Assembly: GCF_003943735.1 (NCBI RefSeq)
Contig: NZ_RJMV01000001.1
Coordinates: 231,552-295,551 of the forward strand
DNA: 64,000 nucleotides
Direction of reading: 5' to 3'
Source of the DNA: Streptococcus sanguinis
GTDB lineage: Bacteria > Bacillota > Bacilli > Lactobacillales > Streptococcaceae
In this document: positions 31,965 to 33,629 of the stretch, one piece after another
Position numbering within the stretch: position 1 is the first letter of the stretch
Layout of the letters: each line of letters opens with the position of its first letter
Notes under the pieces: model-generated
What the model saw: only the letters and a program-made list of their open reading frames with translations
The model's database searches: none
What the model was told of the DNA's origin: nothing
Made by a program: the position numbers and the translations under genes

Positions 31965-32927
31965 ATGACAAAGAAAATCTTGGTCCTGCATACAGGAGGA
32001 ACCATTTCCATGCAGGCTGACGGCTCTGGGGCTGTCGTTACCAATGCTGATAACCCTATGAACCATGTGACCGTTCCGCTTGAGGGGATAGAGACGGAAG
32101 TCATTGACTTTTTTAATATTCCCAGTCCTCATATCACGCCCCAGCACATGCTCAAGCTCTACCAGAAAATCAAAGCCAGTGCTGACCAATTTGACGGAGT
32201 GGTCATTACTCATGGGACAGATACTTTAGAAGAGACAGCTTACTTTCTAGATACTATGCAGCTGCCGAAGATTCCGGTCGTTCTGACCGGAGCTATGCGC
32301 AGTTCCAATGAGCTGGGGAGTGACGGAGTCTATAACTACCTGACAGCCCTACGGGTGGCTAGCGATGAAAAAGCTAGTGATAAAGGCGTACTTGTCGTTA
32401 TGAATGACGAGGCACATGCTGCCAAGTATGTAACCAAAACCCACACGACCAATGTCAGCACCTTCCAGACGCCGACTCACGGACCGCTTGGCTTGATTAT
32501 GAAGCAGGAAATTCTCTATTTTAAGACAGCGGAGCCTCGGGTCCGCTTTGACTTAAACAGCATCTCTGGTCTGGTGCCCATCATTTCAGCTTATGCTGGT
32601 ATGAAGACAGAGCTTCTGGACATGCTGGATTTAGACAAGATAGACGGCCTCATCATAGAGGCATTCGGTGCTGGCAACCTCCCCAAGGAAGTAGCTGACA
32701 AACTGGCTTATATGATAGCTGACGGCTTGCCAGTTGCTCTGGTCTCTCGCTGCTTCAACGGAATTGCTGAGCCTGTCTATGCTTATGAAGGTGGCGGCGT
32801 TCAGCTACACCAGGCTGGCATCTTCTTTGTCAAAGAGCTCAATGCTCAAAAAGCCAGAATCAAACTGCTCATCGCCCTGAATGCTGGACTCAAAGGTCAA
32901 GAACTACGAGATTATATGGAAGGCTGA
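31965..32927 (+). CDS. Type I L-asparaginase
   Basis: 320 residues, start MTKKILVLHTGGTISMQADG with AAGGATTT upstream. Two catalytic threonine motifs: HTGGTISM near residue 10-17 and VITHGTDTLEETAYFLD near 85-100; TGAMRSSNELGSDG follows. No signal peptide, so a cytosolic type I enzyme converting asparagine to aspartate and ammonia. TATAAT at 31913-31918 may be the -10, without a clear -35. Confidence 0.93.
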   Translation: MTKKILVLHTGGTISMQADGSGAVVTNADNPMNHVTVPLEGIETEVIDFFNIPSPHITPQHMLKLYQKIKASADQFDGVVITHGTDTLEETAYFLDTMQLPKIPVVLTGAMRSSNELGSDGVYNYLTALRVASDEKASDKGVLVVMNDEAHAAKYVTKTHTTNVSTFQTPTHGPLGLIMKQEILYFKTAEPRVRFDLNSISGLVPIISAYAGMKTELLDMLDLDKIDGLIIEAFGAGNLPKEVADKLAYMIADGLPVALVSRCFNGIAEPVYAYEGGGVQLHQAGIFFVKELNAQKARIKLLIALNAGLKGQELRDYMEG

Positions 32928-32957: not shown

Positions 32958-32989
32958 CAAAAAGTGCTAAGGTTGCTTAGCACTTTTTT
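32958..32989. terminator. Bidirectional terminator after asparaginase
   Basis: AAAAAGTGCTAAG-GTTG-CTTAGCACTTTTTT. It would also end the minus-strand transcript that starts near 33260. Confidence 0.9.
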
Positions 32990-33083
32990 GACTCATTCAT
33001 ATTCTAACACTGGGAAAACTTCATTGAATCGCTGGACTTAGAAGATAACCTCAAACAGAGACTCTAGAATTTCAAAAATATAA

Positions 33084-33161
33084 TCACTTACCATAGGTCA
33101 CCTTCATTTTCTGAGCTTGCTTAAATGTCTTCGGATAGTGGACTTTGATTGTAACTTTCAT
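33084..33161 (-). CDS. Candidate 25-residue basic peptide gene
   Basis: ATG 33161, stop TGA 33084; product MKVTIKVHYPKTFKQAQKM then KVTYGK, strongly basic, no signal peptide or hydrophobic helix. GCGAGGT lies seven bases before the ATG, an excellent ribosome binding site. It is about 100 nt downstream of the predicted start of the phased-hexamer promoter at 33267-33321 and is followed by the terminator at 32958-32989. I do not recognise it. Promoter, binding site and terminator together make translation plausible, but length alone gives no support. Confidence 0.45.
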   Translation of the reverse strand: MKVTIKVHYPKTFKQAQKMKVTYGK

Positions 33162-33266
33162 AGCTTTTACCTCGCTTATCATTCATTCTTTAAGAGCAAA
33201 AACGAAACTCTTGGAGTGTTTAGCTTCAAGTTTGGTATCTAATCTTTTTGTTCTTACTTGGATATA

Positions 33267-33321
33267 AGGATACAGCCCTAAACTTAAGAATCTCTTATAG
33301 ATTTCTTAGGGAAAGCTTATA
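33267..33321 (-). promoter_or_regulatory. Promoter A with four 11-bp-phased hexamers
   Basis: Minus strand reads TATAAG-N5-CCTAAG-N5-TATAAG-N5-CTTAAG (33283-33321), then 10 bp, then TATCCT as -10 (33267-33272). The last pair fits the CiaR direct repeat NTTAAG-N5-WTTAAG of streptococci at its usual distance from the -10; two further hexamers extend it. Confidence 0.6.
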
Positions 33322-33385
33322 GTCAAAGAAATCCGGCAGCAATCCCTATCTACTATTTGAAACGAACAAGTCTTTTCAATTAAAT

Positions 33386-33568
33386 ACAAAAAACTTCACC
33401 GATTGGGTGAAGTTTGTGATTTGTTAGGAGATTTATGATGAAAAAATTCTAAATTATTCTTATTCTTTGAGTGGCTCATACCTCGCAAGTCTTCTTGTCT
33501 TCAAGCTTTGGTTATAGGATTTTAAGGGATGTTTACTTTGTCATTGGTCCTACCTCTTTCTTTGATTT
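33386..33568 (-). ncRNA. Candidate CiaR-type small RNA (csRNA-like)
   Basis: Starts about 7 nt after the -10 of promoter B and ends at an intrinsic terminator (AACTTCACC, five-base loop, GGTGAAGTT, then TTTTTTG at 33386-33414), about 183 nt. Just before the terminator hairpin it carries AAATCTCCTAAC, complementary to a Shine-Dalgarno, preceded by TTTTTTCATCAT, complementary to an ATGATGAAAAAA start region. This layout matches csRNAs, which pair with translation start sites. Confidence 0.6.
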
Positions 33569-33574
33569 GACAAT

Positions 33575-33629
33575 AGTATAATCCCTCAAACTTAAAGCCT
33601 ACTTATAAATATCTTGCAGGAAACTTAAT
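33575..33629 (-). promoter_or_regulatory. Promoter B with four 11-bp-phased hexamers
   Basis: Minus strand reads ATTAAG-N5-TGCAAG-N5-TATAAG-N5-TTTAAG (33591-33629), 10 bp, TATACT as -10 (33575-33580). Same layout and about 70 bp of similarity to promoter A. It begins 12 bp after the recG stop. Confidence 0.65.

Follow-up and report, generated by a model that had tools for sequence, protein, structure and literature searches.

Between recG (35656-33641, minus strand) and an asparaginase-like gene (31965-32927, plus strand) of a Streptococcus genome lie two minus-strand promoters, here called A and B, that each present four regularly spaced hexamers ahead of a -10 element. The closest known promoters, those activated by the response regulator CiaR, are described with two. 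This raises the question of whether such an arrangement forms a promoter class of its own, which regulator would use it, and what the two promoters transcribe. The window, i.e., the whole 64,000-nt stretch of DNA that we analyzed, can be placed through its recG, which shares 97-98% identity with the recG of six named Streptococcus sanguinis loci.

Read directly on the minus strand, promoter A (33629..33575) has the structure ATTAAG-N5-TGCAAG-N5-TATAAG-N5-TTTAAG-N10-TATACT and promoter B (33321..33267) the structure TATAAG-N5-CCTAAG-N5-TATAAG-N5-CTTAAG-N10-TATCCT. Both thus show what a sequence-only reading of this DNA had described, namely four hexamers with an AAG every 11 bp, followed by 10 bp and a -10. 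Counted from upstream, promoter A comprises the distal hexamers 1 (ATTAAG, 33624..33629) and 2 (TGCAAG, 33613..33618), the proximal hexamers 3 (TATAAG, 33602..33607) and 4 (TTTAAG, 33591..33596), and the -10 TATACT (33575..33580). The corresponding elements of promoter B are TATAAG (33316..33321) and CCTAAG (33305..33310) as distal pair, TATAAG (33294..33299) and CTTAAG (33283..33288) as proximal pair, and an imperfect -10, TATCCT (33267..33272). Placing the start 7 bases past the -10, a rule from PMC3091779, predicts starts at 33568 for RNA A and 33260 for RNA B. A sigma-70 scan called a promoter at neither A nor B, as expected since both are without a -35 element, and the 10-bp gap between the last hexamer and the -10 is the same as in the csRNA promoters that we compared.

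The published CiaR consensus is a direct repeat, NTTAAG-N5-WTTAAG, in which the third T, the second A, and the last G are described as invariable (PMC3091779), which agrees with the earlier statement that known CiaR promoters have two hexamers. The proximal pairs of A and B keep these invariable letters; hexamer 3 (TATAAG) deviates at the second T of the consensus, and hexamer 4 of B (CTTAAG) has a C at the W position. Hexamer 2 of A (TGCAAG) is without the invariable third T.

The genome-wide count that had been proposed as a check yielded three perfect matches in the window's own genome (pattern: four AAG at 11 bp, N10, and TATNNT; control: the reversed pattern), i.e., A, B, and a third copy at G000:C10:1225-1276 that stands behind a CNNM/CorC-type membrane protein gene. 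At up to two mismatches, 10 sites compare with 7 for the reversed control, so that only perfect matches rise above the control. With a slightly stricter pattern that has TAAG as third hexamer, 49 of 197 Streptococcus genomes match at a total of 93 sites, and the reversed control gives none. An order-wide sample of 198 genomes contains five matching ones: the own genome, one further Streptococcus, and 3 of the 171 genomes from other genera, each with a single site, of which two are near-identical and cover an apparent ribosome-binding site and start codon. A first DNA similarity search had matched 5 of 41 genomes, with L004 and L005 as weak matches from other genera (E near 8e-4). The locus of the third copy (L007, 1187-1278) combines the promoter with a 20-aa open reading frame (ORF) and a csRNA module near a contig end. 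Elsewhere in the same genome, six TTAAG at exact 11-bp spacing and with no good -10 were seen on the minus strand of L012 (~1494-1557; G000:C3:206626-206699), with the start of a gene of opposite direction ~500 bp away, whose product looks by eye like a secreted protein rich in tyrosine and asparagine.

What would these promoters express? RNA B is predicted to span 302 nt (32959..33260, minus strand) and to end in a hairpin at ~32988-32959 that was placed by script and fold and is not listed by the terminator scan. It contains an ORF of 25 aa, MKVTIKVHYPKTFKQAQKMKVTYGK, behind GCGAGGTAAAAGCT (33084..33161), the end of which is overlapped by a second ORF of 18 aa, MVSDYIFEILESLFEVIF, preceded by GAAGGTGACCT (33038..33094). 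The residues of the 18-aa ORF are mostly hydrophobic and acidic, and it is present in the window and all six named S. sanguinis loci, once with a single residue change. RNA B as a whole shows no strong fold, i.e., none better than its shuffles (z -0.67), and no csRNA module by our own pattern.

The longer ORF resembles rio82, a 20-aa peptide (MTVTIKVNYQTTFQKKEAKN) encoded within srf-21 of S. pneumoniae D39 and found by ribosome profiling (PMC9426450). Downstream of recG in S. pneumoniae (L120), a four-hexamer promoter with TTTCAG as hexamer 4 likewise precedes an ORF near-identical to rio82. Gene B stands directly downstream of recG behind a CiaR-type promoter, and its 25-aa ORF, preceded by a Shine-Dalgarno sequence, encodes the IKVxYxxxF core of the rio82 family; Pfam and NCBIfam assigned none of five rio82-like peptides to a family. 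Judged by these sequence features, RNA B is a rio82-type gene with predicted translation of the 25-aa ORF, and B would give a 302-nt mRNA for a rio82-family peptide and the overlapping 18-aa ORF. PneumoBrowse 2 annotates rio82 as shp1518 (PMC11701578), and PMC9426450 places rio82 in srf-21 beside spv_1506 and rio83/rio84 between spv_1517 and spv_1518; the shp1518 label is probably a mislabel.

We consider it unlikely that promoter B and its ORFs are merely the decaying, functionless remnant of such a gene. The imperfect -10, the lack of a csRNA module by our pattern, and a leader of ~100 nt compared to ~30 in relatives would all fit decay, but the four hexamers, TATCCT itself, and both ORFs are kept in six out of six named S. 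sanguinis loci. Furthermore, the peptide ORF of related groups varies mostly at third codon positions, with 1,6,9 / 2,5,7 / 1,1,7 / 2,2,7 variable columns by codon position in four length groups. The pN/pS values are 0.22 for the 9-codon core and 0.28-0.66 by length group, figures that are biased because the ORFs were chosen by that same core and peptide pattern.

RNA A is predicted to span 181 nt (33388..33568, minus strand). Its intergenic CiaR-type promoter is followed by a terminator (33388..33415) from the terminator scan, and comparison with csRNAs of S. pneumoniae and the own genome identified at 33446-33424 a csRNA module, TTTTTTCATCATAAATCTCCTAA, which is complementary to a Shine-Dalgarno sequence and AUG start codon region. 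The first seven bases of the module are paired in the minimum-energy fold and none in the centroid, with a weak fold overall that is no better than shuffles (z -0.48). Scans of the window with Rfam and for tRNA/tmRNA had no matches. Elsewhere in the genome, the module has no near-full antisense match at up to two mismatches and one at three mismatches, at C6:4616 beside a possible ATG. By analogy with the csRNA class, RNA A would act as a 181-nt CiaR-type small RNA whose anti-Shine-Dalgarno stretch pairs with the start regions of target mRNAs. An intact peptide ORF is absent from RNA A; what is left is a rio82-like relic (33533..33544) of a start codon, two more codons, and a stop, with the Shine-Dalgarno sequence kept. 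The window shares this stop as fourth codon with all six named S. sanguinis loci.

S. sanguinis SK36 has six csRNAs, all of them detected on Northern blots, including csRNA8 with 177 nt (PMC3091779). The own genome contains five other csRNA genes which together with A make the same count of six; for the fifth, the promoter was seen in related genomes only. Sized in one and the same way, three of them measure 92, 95, and 86 nt compared to 91, 94, and 85 nt in SK36, and a fourth 94 nt compared to 95 or 84 nt; the 181 nt of RNA A are close to the 177 nt of csRNA8, although its being 3-4 nt longer speaks against an identity of the two. On a shared strand, csRNA1 precedes RNA A by ~473 kb in G064 and ~466 kb in G063, and 481 kb separate csRNA1-1 from csRNA8 in SK36 (PMC3091779). 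Less favorably, in G062 the two are on opposite contig strands; in G000, G009, and G051 they are on different contigs. Given this agreement of csRNA count, size, and position, RNA A is taken as the csRNA8 orthologue and most likely is csRNA8, an assignment set by these three features; the rule of PMC3091779 for calling such an RNA csRNA8 is an identity of at least 80% to the SK36 csRNA with no indel exceeding three bases.

The same two kinds of product recur behind other four-hexamer promoters. We read the downstream sequence of 30 loci, covering 31 of the 93 sites, and found a short ORF behind a Shine-Dalgarno sequence in 17, starting 28-32 nt past the -10 (the ORF of L032 is not recognizably of the rio82 family). 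Another 12 have a short RNA with csRNA-like features and no ORF directly behind the promoter, with the TCTCC part not evident in L030, L037, and L046, and one ends at a contig end. An ordinary gene start directly behind the -10 was seen at none of the 30 loci.

Some of these RNAs carry both features at once. Among 26 selected four-hexamer promoter entries from 24 sources, 10 combine an ORF with the csRNA module in a single RNA, 14 have only the ORF, and 2 only the module (A of the window and A in L048). The ten entries with both fall into four sequence groups, namely the third S. sanguinis copy, an S. cristatus-like copy, an S. intermedius-like recG copy, and L032. A keeps the Shine-Dalgarno sequence and start of the missing ORF, and it can be aligned to the RNA of S. 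intermedius along promoter and leader (76% over 102 columns) and also in the module. It therefore looks as though A had been a dual RNA before losing the peptide, and B looks like a peptide-only gene. Given the ten entries with ORF and module on one RNA, csRNA8 and srf-21/rio82 look like a single family by sequence, the RNA and peptide parts of which are divided here between two genes. In some streptococci, one RNA carries both the ORF and the csRNA module; here, the module is on A and the ORF on B. A dual ancestor may have split into A and B, or the B type may never have had a module. The most far-reaching version, in which CiaR drives dual csRNAs that are also mRNAs for ~20-28-aa peptides from a two-dimer promoter, split in S. 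sanguinis into the csRNA8 RNA and a neighboring peptide gene, is one that we put forward tentatively and with somewhat more doubt than conviction.

How are A and B themselves related? They had been described as sharing about 70 bp, with one a duplicate of the other, and this part of the sequence-only reading found no support on closer comparison. Aligned in register, only 52 of 104 bases agree, and blastn at E<=1 between them yields only a match of 9 bases, on which grounds we rejected a recent duplication of A into B. Across the 55-bp promoter, A and B agree at 34/55 positions, and outside the AAG and -10 letters at 17/37. Compared with each other's sequence, A has a closer match in the recG promoter of S. 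massiliensis and in the third copy of its own genome (27/37 each), and B in an S. oralis srf-21 promoter (22/37). From these figures, A and B look like old paralogues rather than recent duplicates.

Whether the distal pair is more than an accident of these promoters was addressed with two sets of promoters that had been chosen blindly, i.e., by what lies downstream. For one, csRNAs were selected by their module only (20 of 20 and 30 of 143 listed module sites) and anchored on the proximal pair and -10, resulting in 46 distinct promoters whose proximal pair is good. Of these, 7 have the AAG of both distal hexamers and 37 that of neither, with hexamer 1 alone in none and hexamer 2 alone in 2; the distal pair is thus missing from 39 of the 46, i.e., from most. 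AAG-N8-AAG pairs occur 7 times at offset 11 and 3 times at other offsets, and shuffled promoters predict 0.013 at offset 11 and 0.89 anywhere. The in-register pair in 7/46 csRNA promoters against 0.013 by shuffles supports the idea that the four-hexamer arrangement is a distinct promoter class. An earlier count with slightly different rules, which left out two rows per type with a poor proximal pair, had found both distal AAGs in 7/18 promoters of the CATAAATCTCCTA type and 0/26 of the CATAATAATCTCC type (AATAATCTCC module).

For the other set, promoters were chosen by a peptide ORF downstream of recG, which our own filter found in 62 of 80 named loci and did not find in the other 18, including the records named S. 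parasanguinis, S. australis, and S. rubneri. The distal pair has AAG at both hexamers in 48 of the 59 distinct promoters, though these form 11 clusters at 80% so that none of the counts are independent. Hexamer 3 has AAG in 59/59, and hexamer 4 has AAG in 12, TAG in 25, and CAG in 22. The distal AG letters are also kept, with AAG at hexamer 2 in 56/59 and AAG or TAG at hexamer 1 in 56/59, the latter being partly forced in much of the mitis group where hexamer 1 overlaps the recG stop codon. Of the 11 exceptions to the distal AAG pair, 7 are second copies with TAG as hexamer 1, and the other 4 comprise L079 and L092 with a replaced distal pair, one AGG at hexamer 2, and one base-shifted promoter. 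Downstream of recG in L079, L090, L092, and L124, other sequence replaces the distal pair, and the proximal pair and ORF remain. Eleven mitis-group loci (L063, L066, L075-L078, L080, L081, L083, L100, and L102) have tandem rio82-like ORFs downstream of recG, where each ORF, as far as readable, has its own four-hexamer-like promoter (the second promoter of L100 is masked).

As proposed earlier, the likely regulator is CiaR: B corresponds to srf-21, which CiaR controls, A fits csRNA8, and the genome has a ciaR gene. This response regulator gene encodes the recognition helix VVEVYVSKIRKKL, the one published for CiaR of S. sanguinis SK36. In S. pneumoniae, srf-21 beside axe1 belongs to the CiaR regulon, and a CiaR sequence has been mapped for it; its authors found no similar entry in two RNA databases and no clear function (PMC6560143). 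In S. oralis, a ciaR mutant has no detectable csRNAs (PMC3091779). Pneumococcal CiaR sites include degenerate second hexamers such as TTTTAN (PMC5719415), which suits the TTTTAG at hexamer 4 of many relatives. CiaR is most likely the regulator of A and B and the best-supported candidate by analogy; its control of both promoters in the S. sanguinis strain of the window is expected from the data on srf-21, csRNAs, and SK36 CiaR in other strains.

In the mechanism that we propose, CiaR would activate A and B, with proximal hexamer pair and -10 forming a CiaR promoter of the usual kind. Further upstream by one and two 11-bp turns (~-61 to -45), the distal pair would serve as a second, in-register CiaR site where another dimer is loaded on the same helix face and may raise or sharpen activation. 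We infer two CiaR dimers per four-hexamer promoter from the exact register, the joint occurrence of the distal half-sites, and the kept AG letters. As a whole, the reading that CiaR activates A and B with a second dimer at the distal pair, that A is of csRNA8 type and B a rio82-type mRNA, and that both belong to one family appears quite probable to us.

The distal block is no plain copy of the proximal site, given the non-consensus TGCAAG in A and a distal spacer (TTTC) that is conserved across 15 diverse promoters where the proximal spacer is not, and this leaves room for an UP element or another regulator. UP elements are contacted by RNA polymerase through its alpha subunits at positions -59 to -38, about where the distal block (-61 to -45) is placed, and so only the proximal pair might be a CiaR site, with an A/T-rich UP element upstream whose AAG phasing is a by-product. 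The well-conserved TTTC spacer would suit this explanation, yet UP elements are not known to require G, and the distal AG letters are retained in the ORF-anchored promoters at the frequencies given above (56/59 for either hexamer). Together with the finding that 7 of 10 AAG pairs sit at an offset of 11 bp, this makes a mere UP element distinctly improbable. Dual control of these small genes, with a different OmpR-type regulator at the distal pair, would have candidates among the eight OmpR-type DNA-binding domains in the own genome and would account for the deviation of distal hexamer 2 and spacer from the CiaR consensus. However, the step from hexamer 2 to hexamer 3 keeps the 11-bp register, for which a separate protein would have no need, and AAG is common to distal and CiaR half-sites; we judge such dual control to be quite unlikely. 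Two CiaR dimers, one at each pair, remain our preferred reading of the four hexamers.

Taken together, the sequence-only reading was right about the four hexamers, was largely supported on CiaR, and found no support for a duplication with 70 bp in common; the putative products of the two promoters, a csRNA from A and a small peptide gene at B, had not been part of it. In the literature that we searched, no description of four-hexamer CiaR promoters was met, though this is no proof of absence. Among papers on srf-21, SPV_2378, rio82, or csRNA8 singly, none was found that treats csRNA8 and srf-21 together; PMC8317062 and others cover one of the two. PMC12323649 has passages on rio82 and on csRNAs. 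The larger point is a four-hexamer CiaR-type promoter class tied to a csRNA/peptide gene family. CiaR promoters would fall into two-hexamer and four-hexamer classes that can be compared directly, and the unexplained pneumococcal srf-21/rio82 becomes linked to an S. sanguinis csRNA known from Northern blots. It also becomes possible to test clearly if a single stress regulator employs RNAs with a double role, in pairing with mRNAs and in encoding a peptide.

Compared with known systems, A, the sixth csRNA found in the genome, shares with CiaR-dependent csRNAs, csRNA8 of SK36 in particular, a CiaR-type promoter, the module (TTTTTTCAT..ATCTCCTAA), a terminator, and a size of ~177 nt. A differs from csRNA8 and other CiaR-controlled csRNAs in having four hexamers compared to two in the published consensus and in carrying the remains of a peptide ORF. 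B shares with srf-21 (SPV_2378)/rio82 of S. pneumoniae D39 the position directly downstream of recG, the four-hexamer promoter, and the peptide core IKVxYxxxF (within 20 aa in rio82). It differs from srf-21 in its leader (~100 nt, with ~30 in relatives), imperfect -10, C-terminal half of the peptide, second overlapping ORF, and neighbor, which is the convergent asparaginase gene and not axe1. Tandem direct half-sites at 10-11 bp are known from other OmpR/PhoB-type regulators, e.g., at Pho boxes and the OmpR sites of ompF, which likewise line up several direct half-sites and differ from A and B in regulator and sequence.
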